This document shows positions 1-7,064 of a stretch of DNA of 7,064 bases, piece after piece. The notes under the pieces are model-generated. The model was given only the letters and a program-made list of their open reading frames with translations, was not told the DNA's origin and made no database searches. Origin of the DNA: an uncultured Demequina sp. (lineage in GTDB: Bacteria > Actinomycetota > Actinomycetes > Actinomycetales > Demequinaceae); the NCBI GenBank assembly GCA_937925595.1, contig CALALQ010000455.1, positions 1 through 7,064 on the forward strand, given 5' to 3'. Position 1 is the stretch's first letter; each line of letters begins with the position of its first letter. The translations under genes and the position numbers were made by a program.

Positions 1-242
1 TCCGCGAGGGTGAAGGTGTCCTCGGCGGCGTGCATCTCGAGCGCGGCGTAGGCGTCGGCCTCCTGCTCGTAGACGAGCTCAAGGCGCCCCGAACGGGGCC
101 GTGGCGCGATGAGGGTCACGGCGATGCCGCCAGAGATGAGGTCGTGGATGATGTTCTGCGACTGGCGCTCGGTCTGATAGCCGTGGACGATGAGCGGGGT
201 CGTCGTCTCGGAACTGGTCGTTGCGGTGATCACGGTGCTCAT
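1..242 (-). CDS. Small tail-associated protein, C-terminus cut by the window edge
   Basis: An open frame starts at ATG 242..240 and runs off the left edge, giving the first 80 residues. It begins MSTVITATTS and carries a central IAPRPRSGRLELVY stretch followed by an Ala-rich helix (EADAYAALEMHAAE) and FTLA. Its ATG overlaps the tape-measure stop by four bases (ATGA), and a GGAG lies about nine bases upstream, so it is probably translationally coupled. From memory, small proteins with this PRPRSG...L...Y pattern occur next to the tape measure in actinobacteriophages and are labelled tail or minor tail proteins. The exact role, such as distal tail or tape-measure-tip component, cannot be fixed here. 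That it is coding is well supported by the overlap, the codon usage and the lack of stops. The product name is inference from position and recalled resemblance. Confidence 0.8.
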   Translation of the reverse strand, partial: MSTVITATTSSETTTPLIVHGYQTERQSQNIIHDLISGGIAVTLIAPRPRSGRLELVYEQEADAYAALEMHAAEDTFTLA

Positions 243-1546
243 ACGCGCTGACTCCGCGAGTTGTATGCGCCACCGGTGCTGGCTTCGTAGATGACGGTGC
301 CGCGCAGTGTCGGCGGCCGGTAACGGTCCACGTTGCGGCTGTCGACATTGAGCTTGAGGCGGATGTCCTTGCGGGACAGGCGCTGAATCTTGCCGTCCGC
401 GTCGCCATAGAAGCGGTCCATGTCCTGGTGCGCCTGCTTCGTCTTCGCGTCGACTACGAACTCGGTGCCGTCCGGGAGCTTGATCAGCTCGTTGCCGAAC
501 TCATCAATCTCGCGTGTGGCCGACTCGGCTTTCGCGGCGGCATCGAGCAGGAACTCTGAGGTGATGCGCTTGGAGTTCGCCGCGGCGTTCCGTTGCTCCT
601 TGGTCGCATCGGTGAGCGCGTTCCACCGGTCGCGCAGCGAAGACGCCTCATCGGAAAGGCTCTTGTTCTTGCCATAGATGGAGTCGAGGTGCGCGTCCTC
701 GGACTCGAGGTACTTGTTGATCTCCTGCTGCACGATCGCCTGCGACTGGAGGTCACCAGCGTTCGCCTTGATCAGGATCGACTCGTCAAGGTGCAGGGTC
801 TTCGCGTCCTCGCGGAGCTTCTTGTACTCGTCAGCCCGGTCGGGGTTGAACAACAGGTCGTTGGCTTCGGCGATGAGGTGGGCCACGTCGAGGTAGTCGC
901 GGCCGTCCTCGGCGGCTCCTCGGTATGCGGCACCGAGACGGTCACGCAACTCGTCTGCGGCCTCTTGCTGTTCTGTGAGGCTCTGGGTGATCGCTCCCCA
1001 CCCGACGGCACCCGCGGCCAGAGCGATTGCGCCCACGATGCCCGCGGGGCCGGTTCCGGCGAGCGTGGCTGCGAGACCACCGAGGGTGTCCTGGCCGACC
1101 TGGCTGAGGTCGGTGAGGTCGCCGCTGAACGACGAGACGGCTTCGCCGAGGTTCTGGCCGATCTCCTGCTGGAGTTCGCCTGCGCCGTCCTTGATCTTCC
1201 CGAAGCCCTGCGCCCCGCCGTCGCCCACGTCATCGAGGGCGTTTTCGGTCTTCTGCGATTGGCGCTGCGCGTCCCGCAGGGCGTCTTCCAGGGCGTCGAG
1301 CTGGCGGGCTCCATCGCGCCCAGAGTCTTCCGCTGCACGACCTACGTCGTCGACGGCGCGCTCGGTGCGGTCGGCCTGGCTGTCGATGTCCTTGAGGCTG
1401 TCTTCGATGCCATCAAGGTCGCGGCTGCTGCGGCCTGCGTCGCTCACTGCGCGTTCGAGGTTCTCGAGTGCGCGTTCGCCATCCTTGGCGCCCTTTGCGA
1501 TGTCGGACGTGTTGAGCCCGATATCGACGATGATCTTCCCGCTCAT
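239..1546 (-). CDS. Short tape-measure protein
   Basis: This 435-residue protein is the likely tail-length ruler, filling the tail tube and guiding its assembly. Residues 20 to 110 are strongly charged and helical, with two related 26-residue repeats at 44-69 and 83-108 (39-residue period, both ending TE.A.DDVG). A Gly/Ala-rich hydrophobic segment spans about 157-186, as in many tape measures with a membrane-active region. Helical, charged sequence follows to about 350, and then a more beta-like tail (LPDGTEFVVDA, then IRLKLNVDSRNVD). I chose ATG 1546 over an in-frame ATG at 1603 because it overlaps the upstream stop as ATGA and has GAGG eight bases upstream, and because the extra 19 residues look like read-through of the previous gene. 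Position after the major tail protein supports the call. It is short for the family, which usually exceeds 600 residues. It is complete, ending in a natural TGA. Confidence 0.8.
   Translation of the reverse strand: MSGKIIVDIGLNTSDIAKGAKDGERALENLERAVSDAGRSSRDLDGIEDSLKDIDSQADRTERAVDDVGRAAEDSGRDGARQLDALEDALRDAQRQSQKTENALDDVGDGGAQGFGKIKDGAGELQQEIGQNLGEAVSSFSGDLTDLSQVGQDTLGGLAATLAGTGPAGIVGAIALAAGAVGWGAITQSLTEQQEAADELRDRLGAAYRGAAEDGRDYLDVAHLIAEANDLLFNPDRADEYKKLREDAKTLHLDESILIKANAGDLQSQAIVQQEINKYLESEDAHLDSIYGKNKSLSDEASSLRDRWNALTDATKEQRNAAANSKRITSEFLLDAAAKAESATREIDEFGNELIKLPDGTEFVVDAKTKQAHQDMDRFYGDADGKIQRLSRKDIRLKLNVDSRNVDRYRPPTLRGTVIYEASTGGAYNSRSQRV
1223..1417 (-). repeat. Two diverged 26-residue repeats in the tape-measure protein
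   Basis: Codons for residues 44-69 (1417..1340) and 83-108 (1300..1223) encode related segments. Each starts LD..ED.L.D and ends TE.A.DDVG, with 14 of 26 residues identical and a 39-residue period. Nearby residues 29-43 resemble the end of the unit. This suggests growth of the ruler by internal duplication in a helical region. Confidence 0.55.
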
Positions 1547-2031
1547 CGGCGCAGCCTCGCTTCGAGCATGTCGTGAGCGGTGCGGTACACGGTCTGCACC
1601 CACAGCGCGGCGATGCGGGGGATCATGTCGGACGCGGTCGGGTAGACGACGTAGCCCTTCGGCTTGAAGTTCCAGAACTGCGCCGCGGTGCGGCGCCGCA
1701 CGCGGTGCTTGCCGCCTCGCCGGTTCCTGCGGCTGTACTCGTTGAACTCGTTGCGCCGCGCGCCGAACTCGGTTTCGCGGGTGAAGTTGTCGGCTCGGTC
1801 TGAGCCCGCCACGAGCCGGGCGCCGCGATCAGTGACGTAGACCGTGGACGGCTTCACGAGGCGGTCATGGAAGACAGGCGCGGGCGCACGCTCAGCCAGT
1901 CCTTTACGCCACTCGGGCGCGATGATGGACTTGCTGTACGCGCGCGTCGTCTTCGCCACCTCCCGCGGCATGGTTGCCATGACTTCGATAGCCGCGGCTA
2001 GGCTCGGCGACCGGCGGGCGTCGAGCTGCAC
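1543..2031 (-). CDS. Basic virion protein, possibly HK97 gp10-like neck protein
   Basis: This 162-residue protein lies between the major tail protein and the tape measure. The N-terminal third is helical. A middle strand region (PSTVYVTDRGARLVAGSD) leads to ETEFG at 86-90, then a strongly basic stretch around 101-114 (RRNRRGGKHRVRRR), and finally GYVVYPTASDMIPRIAALW and a C-terminal helix. A beta strand ending in EFG, followed by a proline-containing strand and a closing helix, recalls HK97 gp10-type neck or tail-completion proteins. That likeness is from memory and weak. The start is GTG 2031..2029, supported by GAGGAG at 2043..2038 with a six-base spacer. The stop overlaps the tape-measure ATG as ATGA. 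Tail assembly chaperones normally occupy this slot, but the protein is basic and shows no slippery site or second overlapping frame, so I do not call it one. Confidence 0.75.
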   Translation of the reverse strand: MQLDARRSPSLAAAIEVMATMPREVAKTTRAYSKSIIAPEWRKGLAERAPAPVFHDRLVKPSTVYVTDRGARLVAGSDRADNFTRETEFGARRNEFNEYSRRNRRGGKHRVRRRTAAQFWNFKPKGYVVYPTASDMIPRIAALWVQTVYRTAHDMLEARLRR

Positions 2032-2034
2032 GGC

Positions 2035-2448
2035 TTACTCCTCGACCGGAACGAGCGCGGGCTTGCCGGAGACGCCGAGGGTGACCGTGGCGACGGCGAC
2101 GGAGTCCACGGAACCGCCGATCGCACCCGGCGTGATGATGACCGTCGCGGTGAACGAAGGGCCGCCTGCCTTGGGAACGAAGGTCATCTCGACGGACTCG
2201 CCCTCGTTCTCGAACAGGTACACGGAGAGGCTGTTCGCCGTGCTCCAGTCCTGCGCGTAGGCGAGCGTGCAGGTCCAGGTGGCGGTAGTGCCGAAGCTGT
2301 GCACGCTGGTGGGCGTGAGGCCCTTCCAGGTGACGGTAGAGGCAGACGGCACGAATTCGACCTGTGACACGTGTGCCTGGTAGTCGTCCGCGCCGACGGT
2401 GAGCGTCACGTCGTTGAGGACGATGGGCTCGACGGTGATGGTGGCCAT
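2035..2448 (-). CDS. Major tail protein (tail tube subunit)
   Basis: The 137-residue product is predicted to form the rings of the tail tube. It is almost wholly beta-rich. LNDVTLTVG and a HVSQVEFVPSASTVTWKGLTP region (about 26-47) are followed by TTATWTCTLAYAQDW (54-68), LSVYLFENEGESVEMTFVPK (74-93) and GGPSFTATVIITPGAIGG (95-112), closing with VTLGVSGKPALV. This arrangement closely matches, from memory, the short major tail proteins of actinobacteriophages. The start is ATG 2448, with GAGGAG nine bases upstream, and the stop is TAA at 2037..2035. It follows the tail terminator, as is usual in siphophage operons. It has no Ig-like C-terminal extension, so it is the minimal tube form. Confidence 0.88.
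   Translation of the reverse strand: MATITVEPIVLNDVTLTVGADDYQAHVSQVEFVPSASTVTWKGLTPTSVHSFGTTATWTCTLAYAQDWSTANSLSVYLFENEGESVEMTFVPKAGGPSFTATVIITPGAIGGSVDSVAVATVTLGVSGKPALVPVEE
2038..2043 (-). promoter_or_regulatory. Ribosome binding site for the GTG-started gene
   Basis: GAGGAG on the minus strand is followed by TAAGCC and GTG. The motif is the last two Glu codons of the major tail gene, so its end doubles as the next gene's Shine-Dalgarno. It decides the non-ATG start at 2031. Confidence 0.75.
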
Positions 2449-2454
2449 GGTGGG

Positions 2455-2826
2455 TTACTCCTCGGTGAAGTTGATCGGGAACGAGAGGGTGATCTGCCAG
2501 CACGGCAGCTCCGTATTGGGGAAGGTGCCTGGCGTGGCTTCGGCGCCCTGGCCCGCTCGGTTGCGGAACAGGCCCGGCAGCAGCTCGAGCAGAGCGTCGT
2601 CGAGGGCGTCGGCGGTCGCCTTCGCGTCCTGCATGGCGGGGTGCAGGAGGAAGAACGCAGCGTCGACCGCGAGGGCGCCGAACGTCGCACCGGGGCGGAT
2701 GGTGCGGATGTCGCACATGACGATGGGGCGCTGAATGTCGCCGGGGTTCTCCGTGTAGTCGACCGCGTCCCAGCCCTCGGGGATGTAGTCGCTGAGCGAC
2801 GCGAGGATGTCTGCACGCCAGCTCAT
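2455..2826 (-). CDS. Tail terminator protein
   Basis: This 123-residue protein is predicted to cap the tail tube on the head side, stopping polymerisation and making the joining surface. It opens MSWRADILASLSDYIPEGW, has strands at about 33-44 and 50-62, a helix at about 65-85 rich in Ala, Asp and Leu (DALDDALLELL), and a final beta strand (CWQITLSFPINF). An N-terminal helix, beta strands, a long helix and a closing strand fit the terminator fold, and the place between adaptor and major tail protein agrees. An in-frame ATG at 2991 would add 55 Arg-rich residues overlapping the adaptor gene. I prefer ATG 2826 because it overlaps the adaptor stop as ATGA and has GGAGGG eight bases upstream. The family assignment rests on position and pattern, not on a search. 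Confidence 0.78.
   Translation of the reverse strand: MSWRADILASLSDYIPEGWDAVDYTENPGDIQRPIVMCDIRTIRPGATFGALAVDAAFFLLHPAMQDAKATADALDDALLELLPGLFRNRAGQGAEATPGTFPNTELPCWQITLSFPINFTEE
2458..2463 (-). promoter_or_regulatory. Ribosome binding site of the major tail gene
   Basis: GAGGAG on the minus strand lies nine bases before ATG 2448. As at 2038-2043, it consists of the two terminal Glu codons of the upstream gene, here the tail terminator, directly followed by TAA. Confidence 0.65.
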
Positions 2827-3194
2827 CCGACCGACCCTCCGAACACGGTGCGCGGGCGCAGCCGCTGCTTGATCGACCAGTCCAGCGGGAACACGGTGAG
2901 AGCAAAGCCCTCGCCGTCTGCGCCGATCCCGGCCGACGGGTTCACGGTCGCCGCATTCCAGACGTTGCGCGCGTGCTGACGCTGAGCCCACCTGTAGCCC
3001 TCGGGGACGGTCTGCACCTCATAGGGCTCGCCTTCCTCGGGAGTGACAGTTTCGGTGTTCTCAGGGTCCAGCGGAGGGGCGTAGGCGAGGATCTCCAGGC
3101 GTGCCACCTCGAGCAGCTCTGCCAGCACCGCGTCGTCTGCGGGCGCGCCGAGCCATGCCGCTCGCGCGGTCTCGGGTGTGTGCCAGGTTGCCAT
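2823..3194 (-). CDS. Head-to-tail adaptor (connector) protein
   Basis: The 123-residue product should bind under the portal ring and begin the neck. Helices at about 6-16 (TPETARAAWLG) and 20-38 (DDAVLAELLEVARLEILAYAP) are followed by an acidic loop at 43-58, a third helix (GYRWAQRQHARNVWNAA, 66-82), and a C-terminal VFPLDWSIKQRLRPR at 101-115. That last motif and the helical layout match, from memory, actinobacteriophage head-to-tail adaptors related to HK97 gp6. It begins 17 bases after the capsid stop. Its upstream sequence has only a GGGGCG-like Shine-Dalgarno, weaker than its neighbours, so translation may partly depend on ribosomes arriving from the capsid gene. Its stop overlaps the terminator ATG. 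Confidence 0.82.
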   Translation of the reverse strand: MATWHTPETARAAWLGAPADDAVLAELLEVARLEILAYAPPLDPENTETVTPEEGEPYEVQTVPEGYRWAQRQHARNVWNAATVNPSAGIGADGEGFALTVFPLDWSIKQRLRPRTVFGGSVG

Positions 3195-3211
3195 CGCCTA
3201 CGCCCCGTGGA

Positions 3212-4201
3212 TCAGGCTTCGCCGTCGTCGTAGGTCGCGGTGTCCACCGACACGATCGCGGCCGCGTTGTGCGTGAGCGAGGCCCAGTAGGCGTAGACGG
3301 CGGGGTCGATCGAGCCGTTGTGCGGGTCGACGGCGTCCACACGGATCACGCCGGGCTGCGTGTAGAAGGTGATCGCGGGCTTCGCGCCGACGATGACCTT
3401 GCCGGTGCCGACGGCGCCGGGGAGCAGCTTGAAGCCCTCCATCTCGCCGGAGGTGAGGCCGAAGCCTGCCTGGAGGTAGGCGAGCACGTCGTTCTTGCCG
3501 GTCAGCACGATGTCACGCCACAGCTCGGCGGAGACGATGCCGAAGGTCGGCAGGTTGTCGGTGGCGATCACGCCGAGGGCGGCATCGACGATTCCGGCGA
3601 GACCGACAGGGTAGGGCTCCGAACCGGCGTAGAGGATGCTCGAGACCGTCTTCGCGGTCGCCGCGCCGGTGATCGCGGCGAGCGCCTTGGCGTCGATCTT
3701 GCGCGCCACGTCCTCGGTCTGGAGGCGGAAGTAGGACTCGATGACGCCCTGGTCGCCGAAGTCCTGGAAGCGGCGGTCGATCTTGTGTCCGCCGGCGATG
3801 CGCTGCGCGGTGGTGGTCACGGGCTCGGTGTCGACGGCCGCGCTCGGCACCTCGGACACGTTGCCCGAGTAGTCGCCGACAACAGGCTCGGTCGTCCAGC
3901 GCCAGCCGTCCACCTTGAAGCTGGTGAGCGTGCCCTGGTTCAGCAGCGGAACGAACTTCTGCTCGTAGGGCTGCCGCTTCCAGAGTTCGCCGACGTAGCC
4001 GGGCTGCTGCACGTCGGCGCCAATGGTGACGGTCGACGGGCCGGAGTGCTGGATGTTCGCGATCGCGAACAGGGCACTGCGGTCGCCCGTGCGCTCGGCG
4101 GTGGCGATCGCGGCGAACAGGCCGCTCGCGCTGGTGTCGACGGTTCCTTCGTTGCCCGCGGGGCTAGCGACGCCCTCGGGCAGAGTCGCGATATCGGTCA
4201 C
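3212..4201 (-). CDS. Candidate nested capsid protein from an internal GTG
   Basis: In frame with the fusion, GTG at 4201..4199 (Val174) is preceded by AAGGAGG at 4213..4207 with a five-base spacer. Translation here would give a 329-residue protein starting MTDIATLPEGV and holding the whole capsid part but none of the protease or acidic linker. A free capsid protein of about this size would be normal for an HK97-fold shell, which needs several hundred capsid copies but far fewer proteases. The position fits a start retained after a stop codon was lost between two ancestral genes. Two things are visible: the motif, and its placement at the domain boundary. That it is used in the cell is inference. 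Against it, AAG GAG GAA is also an ordinary way to encode Lys-Glu-Glu in an acidic linker. Confidence 0.55.
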   Translation of the reverse strand: MTDIATLPEGVASPAGNEGTVDTSASGLFAAIATAERTGDRSALFAIANIQHSGPSTVTIGADVQQPGYVGELWKRQPYEQKFVPLLNQGTLTSFKVDGWRWTTEPVVGDYSGNVSEVPSAAVDTEPVTTTAQRIAGGHKIDRRFQDFGDQGVIESYFRLQTEDVARKIDAKALAAITGAATAKTVSSILYAGSEPYPVGLAGIVDAALGVIATDNLPTFGIVSAELWRDIVLTGKNDVLAYLQAGFGLTSGEMEGFKLLPGAVGTGKVIVGAKPAITFYTQPGVIRVDAVDPHNGSIDPAVYAYWASLTHNAAAIVSVDTATYDDGEA

Positions 4202-4720
4202 GACTTCCTCCTTGTCTGCGGTCTCGGCCGCATCGTTGTCCGCGTCGGGCGTTTCCTCGGCGGGGGTTTCGGTGTCTTCATCCGCGACGCTCTCGGCGAG
4301 AGCGAAGAGTGCCGCGGAAGCGAATGCGCCCTCGGTGACGAGGGCTGCGCCGGTGAGGCGGGCGCGCGTGCGGTCGGCGGCGAACCGCACTTCGGCGCTG
4401 AGCTTGCGGAGGTTCTCGCGCTGGCGGGCGAGCCAGTCGTCGGCCTCGTCGGTATCGGCGAGCTGGAACTCTGCGACGACGCCGCGCTCGGTCTTCTCGA
4501 GCACGGTGGCGCGGCCGACCGGGTCGTGCCGGTCGTGCTCGCGGTTGAGCGTGACCACGGACGGGTCGCGCGGAAGGTCGAGCGTGTCGGCGCTGAACTC
4601 GATGTCGGTCTGTCCGGTGCTCGCGGTGCGCGACTTCTCGCCGAACGGGACGAGCAGGCCGCGGAGGGTGCGTGCGTCGGGGTCGTAGGTGAAGTCGCCG
4701 AAGGTCTCGAGGTCAGTCAT
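3212..4720 (-). CDS. Fused prohead maturation protease and major capsid protein
   Basis: This 502-residue product joins two roles usually held by separate genes. Residues 1-142 look like an HK97-type (S78) prohead protease. A REHDRHDPVGR segment gives the likely catalytic His at 62 (65 is the alternative), KLSAEVRF gives the likely nucleophile Ser108, and a closing TGAALVTEGAFASAAL strand (123-138) matches the family's end. Residues 143-172 form an acidic, Ala- and Glu-rich linker. Residues from about 190 to 502 look like an HK97-fold major capsid protein, including GYVGELWKRQPYEQKFVPLL, the HKIDRRFQDFG region, and a C-terminal TFYTQPGVIRVDAVDP domain. The start ATG overlaps the portal stop by eight bases, with GGAG nine bases upstream. 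Such fusions are known in some actinophages. An internal start may also yield capsid alone (see the nested entry). Confidence 0.85.
   Translation of the reverse strand: MTDLETFGDFTYDPDARTLRGLLVPFGEKSRTASTGQTDIEFSADTLDLPRDPSVVTLNREHDRHDPVGRATVLEKTERGVVAEFQLADTDEADDWLARQRENLRKLSAEVRFAADRTRARLTGAALVTEGAFASAALFALAESVADEDTETPAEETPDADNDAAETADKEEVVTDIATLPEGVASPAGNEGTVDTSASGLFAAIATAERTGDRSALFAIANIQHSGPSTVTIGADVQQPGYVGELWKRQPYEQKFVPLLNQGTLTSFKVDGWRWTTEPVVGDYSGNVSEVPSAAVDTEPVTTTAQRIAGGHKIDRRFQDFGDQGVIESYFRLQTEDVARKIDAKALAAITGAATAKTVSSILYAGSEPYPVGLAGIVDAALGVIATDNLPTFGIVSAELWRDIVLTGKNDVLAYLQAGFGLTSGEMEGFKLLPGAVGTGKVIVGAKPAITFYTQPGVIRVDAVDPHNGSIDPAVYAYWASLTHNAAAIVSVDTATYDDGEA
4207..4213 (-). promoter_or_regulatory. 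Internal near-consensus Shine-Dalgarno in the capsid fusion gene
   Basis: AAGGAGG on the minus strand is followed by AAGTC and GTG. It is the longest match to the anti-Shine-Dalgarno that I see before any start in the window, stronger than the GGAG serving the full-length ATG at 4720. Confidence 0.55.
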
Positions 4721-5750
4721 CCGAGGGTTCTCCGTCCGGTGCCTGCTGGGTCTGGTAGGTGATGTCGAAGCGGACGCGCTGGCCGCGGGGCATCACGTCG
4801 TCCATCGACAGGCGGTGCTCGAGCGGGGCGGTCCAGTAGCGCAGCGTCTGCTCGTGGAACGACGAGCGCTGCCCCTCGGCGGTCGTGTAGGTGAGGGAGG
4901 CGGTGGCCGTCGATCCGTCGAGCAGGGAAGCGGGGATGTTGGTCTGGTTGGCGATGTCCAGGCGCACGGCGTTGCGGCCCTGGATGAACATGGCCGAGTC
5001 GTCGATCGCGTTCGGGAACTTCGCGGTGATGCCGTAGGGGACGAAGCCGACCGCGGCGCTGTCGGGGTTCTGGCGGGCGGCGCGCCACTTCGCGAGAAGG
5101 TCGGCGACCTCGCTCTCGCTGGCGACTTCCTGCTCGGTCTGCTCGAACAGCGTCGGCGGGATGGGGGTGCGCACGCGCGCCTGCCATGCGCGCTCGATCG
5201 CGCGGGCTCCGCGGATCGTGCCTGCGGCCGTCTGAAGCAGGCCCTCGCCGGGGCCGGGGATGATGACCACTTCGTTGGCCGGGGCGGGCTTGTTGTCAAC
5301 GAGGACGCGGCCGCTCGCGTCCACGTCCCATCGGTGCTTGGGCACGCGGACGAAGTCGATCGGGTAGCCGTCGGCGCCGTTCTGCCGCGCCCACAGGCTG
5401 ACGCCGTAAAACAGGAAGTCGTCGAGGGTCGCGGCGAGGCGGTGCCACGGGCTGAGCGGGCCGCTGGTGCGGTACGTCCAGGTCGGCTGCGTGGCCAGGC
5501 GCTCCTGCCCGCGGTAGGCGACGAGGGGGAGGTCGGCGACAGCGCCGACGATCAGTGCGCGTGCCCGCGAGACGGCCGGGACTTGGAGGGCCGTCTCGCG
5601 GGTGACCACGGACTCGTCAGGACTGAAGTGCTCCTGCCACGCGAGCATGGCGATGTTGGAGCTGTCCGACCAGGGGGAGACGAGAGCTGATCCGATCGCA
5701 GGGGCAACGGGCTGCGGTGTCCGCGATGTCAGAAAGCTCCAGAGTCCCAT
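4713..5750 (-). CDS. Portal protein
   Basis: This 345-residue protein is the predicted dodecameric ring at the head vertex through which DNA is packaged and ejected. It starts MGLWSFLTSRTP, a common portal opening. Then come a helical VTRETALQVPAVSRARALIVGAVADLPL region (49-76), a PWHRLAATLDDFLFYGVSLW helix (101-120), a strand-rich wing with RVPKHRWDVD, and a C-terminal half with FIQGRNAVRLDIANQTNIPASLLDG (255-279), typical of phage portals of the HK97 or SPP1 type. It is somewhat short, since HK97 portal is about 420 residues. The start is uncertain. ATG 5750 fits the family, but its purine-rich GGAAGGA lies almost against it. GTG 5759 would add only Met-Glu-Gly and has no Shine-Dalgarno. 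Its stop overlaps the capsid fusion ATG by eight bases. Confidence 0.88.
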   Translation of the reverse strand: MGLWSFLTSRTPQPVAPAIGSALVSPWSDSSNIAMLAWQEHFSPDESVVTRETALQVPAVSRARALIVGAVADLPLVAYRGQERLATQPTWTYRTSGPLSPWHRLAATLDDFLFYGVSLWARQNGADGYPIDFVRVPKHRWDVDASGRVLVDNKPAPANEVVIIPGPGEGLLQTAAGTIRGARAIERAWQARVRTPIPPTLFEQTEQEVASESEVADLLAKWRAARQNPDSAAVGFVPYGITAKFPNAIDDSAMFIQGRNAVRLDIANQTNIPASLLDGSTATASLTYTTAEGQRSSFHEQTLRYWTAPLEHRLSMDDVMPRGQRVRFDITYQTQQAPDGEPSDD

Positions 5751-5807
5751 TCCTTCCACGCTATTTCGCTAAATGTCACATTCAGCGGGGTGGTGCTGGG
5801 CAGACTG
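5751..5807 (-). other. Only intergenic gap of note, locally AT-rich
   Basis: These 57 bases separate the terminase stop (TAG 5810..5808) from the portal start. Bases 5761-5784 are AT-rich against a GC-rich background and include most of an imperfect palindrome. I see a GTGACA that resembles a -35 hexamer on the minus strand but no TATAAT-like partner at a fitting distance, so I do not call a promoter. There is no U tract for a terminator. Confidence 0.6.
5767..5787. repeat. Imperfect 21-bp palindrome between terminase and portal genes
   Basis: On the plus strand, CGCTAAATGT, a central C, and ACATTCAGCG form two 10-base arms with one mismatch (5771 against 5783). The core AATGT-C-ACATT is perfect. 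In minus-strand RNA the mismatch becomes a G-U wobble, so an eight-pair stem with a five-base loop (GUGAC) is possible. It could be a protein operator, an RNA processing or stability hairpin, or chance. No U run follows, so an intrinsic terminator is unlikely. Confidence 0.6.
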
Positions 5808-7064
5808 CTAAAGATCGGCGTTGAGCGCGCGGGCGTCGACCTTGACGGCTGTGCGGAGGAATTGGTCGTCATACGCCTTCAGTGCGAGCGCCCACGCCTC
5901 CAGCGGTGTCGGGTCGTCCTCGGCGAGCACGCGACCGAAGCTGAATCCACCGACGCCGATCTTGCGAGCGACTGCGGTACGCGCGGCCTCGTTCATCTGG
6001 CCTTGGTTGTAGTGGACCGCGTTGCCTTCGTGAACGTCCCGCACCAGGAGAGCGGCGGCGGTCTTCACGTCGTTGGCGGTGGCGGGCAGCAGCTTCGGCT
6101 TGGGGCGTGCGCGCTCGAGGTGCTCGGCGATGGTCCGCGCGAACCCGAAGTGCGGGTCGTAGGCGGTGGCCATGCCGTACTTGCCGAACAGCTCCTGGAG
6201 GCGGCCGGGGACGGCGGTGTACTCGGTGAGGGTGTCCAGCAGCAGCCCGTGCGCTTTGCCCGCGGTGTCGCGCCACGCGGCCACGATGCTCGCTCGCGGC
6301 AGTTCCGCGTGGACCGCGTAGGCGAGCCCGAACCGCGATGGCGGGCTCGGCAGCGGGGCGTCAGTGCCCGCGTCGGCCCACTTGTCGGTGCGCAGGATGG
6401 TCTTGGCGCCGCCCACGTCGCCGAACACTCCGAGGTACTCGCGGGCGAACCGCGCGGGGCCGAGCTTCAGGTAGCGGGCTCGGATCTTGTCGATCGGCGT
6501 CAGCCCTGCCGCCACGCCCGGATGCGTCGCCCACACGAGCGGCTCGACGGCCTCCCACGTGTCGAGCATCTCGATCGGTACGTCGTCGCCGATGGAGTAG
6601 AACGCGACCGCGCCGGCCGGGTCGTGCAGTGCCTCCCACAGCATGTTCCCGTCGCGGTAGTCGCCGGGTGTGCCCGCGTAGATCACCTGCCCGTCGCGGG
6701 TGTCCATCGTGGCGAGGATCGCGCCGTTCAGGTCGTCGCCCTGCGCGAGCGTGGCTTCGCCTGCTTCGTCCACGAGCACGAGGTCGTAGGCGGATGCGCG
6801 GAAGCTGTCGCCGATGGGCGTCTCGACGAAGTACTCGGAGCCGTTGGGGAACTCGATGCCGGTGCGCGAGTTGCCGCGCAGCGTCTTCATCGGCCGGGTC
6901 TTCGGGTCCGGGTACACCCGCTCGATCGGGCCGAGCACGTCCGACAGGAACACCCCGCGCGCCTTCGCGCCCTTCGTGGTGAGCGTCATCGCCGCCCGGT
7001 AGTCCTCGCGGAGCATCAGCCGCCCGAGGATCACGGCCTGCGTGCTCGTGCTCTTGGTCGCGCG
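5808..7064 (-). CDS. terL: Terminase large subunit, N-terminus cut by the window edge
   Basis: The frame is open through the right edge and gives the last 418 residues of the DNA-packaging motor. The first visible residues, RATKSTSTQAVILGRLM, hold the end of the ATPase Walker A loop (KST). LVLVDEA at 95-101 is Walker B, with Asp99 and Glu100, and IYAGTPG at 128-134 is the following coupling-type motif. The nuclease half includes LLLDT (275-279), TAYDPHFG (300-307), a KTAAALLVRDVHEGNAVHYNQ stretch (334-354) and EDDPTPLEAWALALKAYD (382-399), whose acidic residues suit metal binding. An in-frame GTG at 7034 is not the true start, since the Walker A residues lie upstream of it. The gene leads the late operon, as is usual, and a small terminase subunit would be expected beyond the edge. 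Confidence 0.92.
   Translation of the reverse strand, partial: RATKSTSTQAVILGRLMLREDYRAAMTLTTKGAKARGVFLSDVLGPIERVYPDPKTRPMKTLRGNSRTGIEFPNGSEYFVETPIGDSFRASAYDLVLVDEAGEATLAQGDDLNGAILATMDTRDGQVIYAGTPGDYRDGNMLWEALHDPAGAVAFYSIGDDVPIEMLDTWEAVEPLVWATHPGVAAGLTPIDKIRARYLKLGPARFAREYLGVFGDVGGAKTILRTDKWADAGTDAPLPSPPSRFGLAYAVHAELPRASIVAAWRDTAGKAHGLLLDTLTEYTAVPGRLQELFGKYGMATAYDPHFGFARTIAEHLERARPKPKLLPATANDVKTAAALLVRDVHEGNAVHYNQGQMNEAARTAVARKIGVGGFSFGRVLAEDDPTPLEAWALALKAYDDQFLRTAVKVDARALNADL

Follow-up and report, generated by a model that had tools for sequence, protein, structure and literature searches.

In phage lambda (C/Nu3) and in herpesviruses (UL26/UL26.5), nested protease-scaffold genes yield, from one reading frame, a long protease form and an abundant short C-terminal form, the herpesvirus short form being made from a separate transcript. 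The short product of these genes is a scaffold, whereas it would be the capsid protein itself in the gene analysed here, a fusion of a prohead protease and a major capsid protein whose protease domain shares the herpesvirus/T4 protease fold. This gene lies on a stretch of 7,064 nucleotides from an uncultured Demequina sp. (assembly GCA_937925595.1, contig CALALQ010000455.1, positions 1 to 7,064), hereafter the window, and all its features given below are on the minus strand. Its domain order is that of the «major capsid and protease fusion protein» genes of small actinophages (PHROG 2263; clusters EE, AN, AX, FE, CW and DM, and phage RRH1), and several PHROG 2263 actinophages belong to its family. 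According to the accessible parts of two articles, protease-scaffold-capsid fusions are common to siphoviruses with uncommonly small genomes, and the actinophage gene is described there as fused, with no mention of a nested start (PMC7302621; PMC5513430). In HK97, protease and capsid (gp4 and gp5) are encoded by separate neighbouring genes (PMC8508860), unlike the single frame of the window; the HK97-type capsid fold is shared, and the predicted nested product would equal gp5 (with its delta domain) in layout. Endolysin genes that yield two products by way of in-frame internal starts (iTSS), reported as experimentally validated, follow the coding strategy proposed here with different proteins, and the endolysin isoforms can form a multimeric enzyme (PMC9430671). 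The capsid polyprotein of Pseudomonas phage PAJU2 and NCBIfam NF045541 are also protease-capsid fusions, and PAJU2 has the same nested Shine-Dalgarno/ATG arrangement; split relatives have so far been found on the PAJU2 side only, and not on the window side.

The window protein matches 86 records of the phage collection, and most of the 60 matches listed are annotated as protease/capsid fusions, so that the fusion itself is already known, as are in-frame internal starts in endolysins. A literature search, outside which most subscription papers fell, identified no paper that describes a nested start within such a fusion. Within that search, two things seem to be new, namely a short product that is itself the capsid protein, and the recurrence of this arrangement among protease-capsid fusions of unrelated families.

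The full-length open reading frame (3212..4720, ATG start) encodes a protein of 502 amino acids in the order prohead protease, linker, major capsid protein (assigned from PHROG 2263 and the phage matches). Between the two folded domains, the minus strand reads AAGGAGG-AAGTC-GTG-ACC-GAT-ATC-GCG, that is, an internal Shine-Dalgarno sequence (4207..4213) followed by a GTG in frame with the fusion (codon 174; 4199..4201). This motif is conserved as a nucleotide signal in the family of the window gene and recurs in an unrelated fusion family. We consider it very probable, from comparison of sequences, that the nested start is functional and that one reading frame gives both a protease-capsid fusion and a free capsid precursor, the overall interpretation of the preliminary description being supported. 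That description had the sequence, spacing and frame of the motif right but misplaced it, since 4213 is the first Shine-Dalgarno base and the GTG occupies 4201-4199. Its statement that this is the strongest Shine-Dalgarno in the window was borne out: anti-Shine-Dalgarno pairing at the nested GTG (-11.4 kcal/mol) ranks first among 482 ATG/GTG/TTG sites scored on both strands (runner-up -10.0), and is stronger than at the full-length start (-6.6 kcal/mol). The pattern AAGGAGG-N4-8-DTG occurs once in the window, for 0.10 expected, and at least once in 18 of 200 shuffles; the window sequence alone is therefore insufficient.

Conservation was examined in the window's own family. From 111 loci (the viral scan for relatives covering the best 80 of 167), 107 fusions were retained after removal of L064, L073 and L078 (5' truncated) and of L107 (run of N between the domains, with differing frames), and 84 of them have less than 80% core identity. 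In the motif-anchored test, Shine-Dalgarno-like 5-mers were located regardless of start codons, and an ATG or GTG was then sought 3-10 nucleotides downstream. In linkers, 148 motif clusters were followed by an in-frame ATG/GTG in 58 cases and by an off-frame one in a single case, the corresponding figures being 18 and 6 for 119 clusters in protease parts, and 35 and 22 for 255 clusters in capsid parts. The motif and an in-frame start were found together in 56 of the 84 fusions, against 32.4 +- 3.0 after synonymous recoding (maximum 44 in 100 draws) and 12.6 after shuffling of codon order in the same linkers (maximum 20 in 100). With a slightly different script, and cut-offs of <80, <60 and <45% core identity, the counts were 56/84, 36/50 and 21/26, for 35.7, 21.2 and 14.9 expected by synonymous recoding and 14.1, 9.2 and 4.6 by codon order. 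The excess was above every draw at all three cut-offs (80, 60 and 45%) with the six-motif and 4-mer sets, and above the synonymous draws at two of three with the three-motif set, which equals the maximum at <45%; reverse-complement and arbitrary control motif sets stayed within their draws.

By class, the 84 fusions comprise 57 with a 5-mer, 16 with a 4-mer only and 11 without a 4-mer and ATG/GTG in the tested zone. The codon phase of the AGGA core varies (41, 12 and 2 of the 57 sites, GAGG being present in 2), and the signal is encoded by differing peptides, e.g. ADKEEV, NPQGEI and PEGEFG. By our reading of the individual sites, the genes frequently rely on a signal of moderate strength, for example AAGGAA, and not on the strongest that the codons permit, in line with the negative duplex-energy tests described below. 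In six loci (L027, L059, L074, L090, L095 and L105), a weaker recurring GAAAG(C/T)GAGA or GAGAGTGAGA stands shortly before an ATG/GTG, where others have AGGA; this variant, which often translates as Glu-Ser-Glu-Thr, is perhaps an alternative ribosome signal.

In the close set were 21 distinct loci, each at a capsid identity of 45% or above (the extra loci used there and in the protease alignment being outside the 84). All 21 have an ATG (15) or GTG (6) counterpart 64-80 codons ahead of the capsid core, which has little meaning alone because several of these loci have other in-frame GTGs nearby; 20 of them, the exception being L121, also have a Shine-Dalgarno 4-mer. The peptide ahead of the nested start varies (KEEV, EEND, QGEI, EGEFG, EGAFA) while the nucleotide signal stays. 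Furthermore, the RNA is predicted to be open at the 57 nested starts (z +1.53 +- 0.11), and not elsewhere in the same linkers (z -0.15 +- 0.04, n=691), at other linker motifs (z -0.05 +- 0.14, n=63) or at motifs in the protease and capsid parts (z -0.12 +- 0.05, n=451). For the sequences compared, the motif-based comparisons and this RNA-openness control go well past chance.

Nested and upstream Shine-Dalgarno sequences were compared by hand in 17 of 21 fusions, the other four being without a clear nested site. The nested one is stronger in only 10 of the 17, so that the preliminary description, which had the nested site beating the full-length one, was right for the window but holds in no more than these 10 fusions. 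Shine-Dalgarno strength alone consequently does not establish free capsid as the main product, and the product ratio is what we infer. A strong nested site is also present in Microbacterium phage PensacolaC28, outside the 84 (GTG codon 216, -10.3). Two homologues, P0028 and P0039 (343 and 330 amino acids), start at or near the nested Met; they were left out as support because their contigs may be truncated (or the proteins may be separately called capsid genes).

The window protein finds no PAJU2 among the 86 records of the phage collection, the sole Pseudomonas record being that of phage Hadban, and the window and PAJU2 families are thus not close in sequence. The Hadban record (OR067381.1, 3990-4757) has its match at coordinates identical to those for Arthrobacter phage Adaia, and its Pseudomonas aeruginosa host label looks odd. 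In PAJU2 and in phage c2, a strong nested Shine-Dalgarno and its ATG (-10.8 and -8.7, respectively) lie between the protease and a coiled-coil-like segment, and moderate nested sites are found in Q54 (-6.0) and Nocturne116 (-5.6). The match of the free-capsid model TIGR01554 on PAJU2 begins at residue 205, just past the nested Met197, and NF045541 reaches 60.6 of 525 bits on this protein, well under its cut-off. According to the c2 record, codon 206 is the first of the mature protein, 75 codons past the nested ATG, and nested initiation followed by later cleavage would be compatible in this phage; the 28 c2 relatives all share 93-100% identity over the best segment, and one is a fragment.

The PAJU2-like scan covered the best 80 of 157 relatives, of which 2 have no protease match, 68 are fused and 10 are split (10 of the 78 with both domains thus have them in separate genes). 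Among non-redundant fused genes, the motif and start pair was found in 18 of 20, for 9.7 and 4.6 expected from the two null models (maximum 14 and 9). One of the six search peptides spans the nested start, and loci were therefore also counted without that peptide, giving 17 of 19. All nine split loci examined (L236, a near-copy of L235, being omitted) offer a capsid start 88-95 codons ahead of the core, for a nested ATG at 82-102 codons in fused relatives; no frameshift error need be assumed in these loci, because the protease frame ends ahead of the capsid start. A capsid tree of 63 rows (54 fused, 9 split) requires at least seven changes between the fused and split states, all seven forced by well-supported branches, and the labels are weakly clustered on it (no more changes than these are required in 33 and 25 of 500 shuffles). 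In the PAJU2-like family, where fused and split genes can share the place of the start, the capsid start is thus kept whether the frame is fused or split. This is the pattern which the preliminary description proposed for the window gene, namely the joining of two genes when a stop codon was lost; the PAJU2-like family has both states, but no clearly split relative was found among the 111 loci of the window's own family, where L085, considered as a split gene, was rejected as it reads as fused.

A number of observations weigh against a functional nested start, or against its generality. Duplex-energy tests gave no excess over synonymous recoding, and the count for AGGAG alone stays inside the synonymous draws at all three cut-offs; the expectation that the site is conserved beyond what the amino acids need therefore holds in the motif-anchored test but not by energy. 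The motif-anchored test was designed after motifs had been seen and after the negative energy test, and so was not blind, and kinship among loci inflates its p-values. The 11 fusions without a signal in the tested zone (L049 and L056 among them have one nearer the core) and the 16 with a 4-mer only point the same way, as does one of the 57 5-mer sites (EricDab, REDGIH), which sits in the protease and not in the linker. The upstream Shine-Dalgarno is the stronger one in 7 of the 17 fusions compared. The nested sites of Q54 and Nocturne116 are surpassed in energy by other in-frame sites of their genes, and with three motifs the PAJU2-like count (11 of 20, against 7.9 and 3.3) equals the synonymous maximum of 11. 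Lastly, no credible nested site was seen ahead of the capsid in the Gordonia phages SallySpecial and Emperor, and only a weak one in EricDab. These three phages (L009, L011 and L014 for EricDab, SallySpecial and Emperor) have an extra membrane-like N-terminal segment fused before the protease, with GAAAGGA...ATG directly before the protease at codons 117, 134 and 121, respectively, and their nested start may have been shifted upstream.

Of the alternatives, the one that survives best is a pure polyprotein, which we regard as improbable; each capsid subunit would be made with its own protease and released by autocleavage of the linker, the internal motif being unused. This mode may apply to the Gordonia phages that lack a credible nested site, the mature start in the c2 record agrees with it, and the protease of the window family is probably active, as judged from the invariance of His62 and Ser108 in the 43 sequences of the protease alignment. 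Cleavage and nested initiation are compatible, so that cleavage data alone do not favour a polyprotein, which moreover leaves unexplained the conservation of motif and start beyond amino-acid need, the interchange of ATG and GTG, the confinement of RNA openness to the site and the match with the capsid gene start of split relatives. It is still less likely that the nested start is a vestige marking the start of a formerly separate capsid gene and kept by descent only. PAJU2-like split relatives exist and can share the start position, as such a vestige would suppose, but the signal is present although linkers differ strongly in sequence and length, and it is kept in the 18 of 20 PAJU2-like fused genes despite the repeated changes between fused and split states. 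Coding coincidence, whereby the Lys-Glu/Glu-Glu codons of an acidic linker spell AAGGAG/GAGGAG with a Met or Val sometimes next, is the least likely of all and already largely refuted: synonymous recoding alone yields the pair in about 32 of the 84 fusions, energy shows no excess and the chance is 9% in the window alone, but codon-order shuffles of the same linkers give far fewer pairs, the in-frame to off-frame ratio in linkers is 58:1, other encodings (EGAFA, QGEI, EGEFG) retain the nucleotide signal, RNA openness is limited to the site and the pattern recurs in unrelated families.

The nested start being taken as functional, initiation at the ATG at 4720 would give the protease-capsid fusion of 502 amino acids, which would carry the maturation protease into the prohead, and initiation at the internal Shine-Dalgarno/GTG (4213-4199) would give a capsid precursor of 329 amino acids (3212..4201) with a short N-terminal delta/scaffold-like segment. 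Mixed assembly would then produce a head composed mostly of free capsid subunits, with a minority bearing the protease, which would finally cleave the linker and the delta-like segments. Production of both proteins, their ratio and the maturation cleavage are what we infer from the arrangement. On a broader scale, we think it reasonably probable that, across several unrelated lineages, the protease-capsid «fusion» genes of tailed phages mostly encode two products; fusion by read-through would time and again preserve the former capsid start as a nested one, switching between the fused and split states would be almost neutral, and translation initiation would set the ratio of protease to capsid. 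If so, many annotated fusion proteins are mis-described, the real capsid protein being an unannotated short form, and the annotation of many phage capsid genes would be corrected. Two products from one frame would also settle how the smallest tailed phages, with protease and capsid genes fused, reach a workable stoichiometry, and would offer a case of repeated fusing and splitting in which a translation start and its dosage control persist.

The match of the fusion to PHROG 2263 («major head protein», E 2e-53) covers residues 15-495 and is thus a full-length family match. The prohead protease domain (residues 1-145; 4286..4720), with the invariant His62 and Ser108, has a herpesvirus/T4-type protease fold with the conserved His/Ser present; by sequence, the window protein has no match to Pfam S78, which is matched by 6 of the 21 members of the group labelled A1, and a weak match only to TIGR01543 (E 0.028). 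The acidic disordered linker that contains the nested start (residues 137-198; 4127..4312) was delimited by the predicted local distance difference test (pLDDT) of the structure model, which is <50 for residues 137-193 and 195-198, between the two folded domains. The C-terminal part has an HK97-type capsid fold (core at residues 227-502; 3212..4042), and its structural alignment to HK97 gp5 (1ohg) starts with model residue 227 facing gp5 residue 107. The segment of the predicted nested product ahead of this core (residues 174-226; 4043..4201), i.e. about its first 50 residues, is delta/scaffold-like by position and, by analogy with the c2 record, may be cut off on maturation.

On its minus strand, the window carries the head-gene operon of a small actinophage or prophage, comprising the terminase, the portal, the protease-capsid fusion and, after two small genes, the major tail protein, then one more gene and a possible tape measure. 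Terminase, portal and major tail protein were identified by profile search, the possible tape measure has a Pfam match under the cut-off, and the two small genes that separate the fusion from the major tail gene, which have no profile match, were placed by position only. Gene order was compared with that of annotated Arthrobacter phages (portal, fusion, adaptor, terminator, major tail), the small genes again being matched by position only; in the Gordonia relatives, lysis genes precede the fusion. The viral contig IMGVR_UViG_3300005286_000141 matches the window at 99.7% over 4483 nucleotides, and further close relatives with DNA are found in viral contigs and Microbacterium genome contigs (47-60%).

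The ClpP-type protease-capsid fusions of Pseudomonas phages F10 and MD8 (L277, 4387-6468, and L278, 4371-6452) have a Shine-Dalgarno with ATG at codon 185, which probably falls within the protease, and at codon 220. KU160640, considered as a cluster AM fusion, was rejected; it is phage Bennie, which has no such gene in the stretch examined. For the solved capsid of PDB entries 9sz9/9sza, whose chain matches Lactococcus phage Nocturne116, the deposited sequence of 516 amino acids includes the protease part, and a literature search for the code 9SZ9 found no paper.

The portal gene (4713..5759, by profile search) overlaps the start of the fusion with its end, and upstream initiation of the fusion may be coupled to it. 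The portal start listed, a GTG at window position 5759 on the minus strand, has almost no Shine-Dalgarno (-0.4 kcal/mol), and the true portal start may be located further in.
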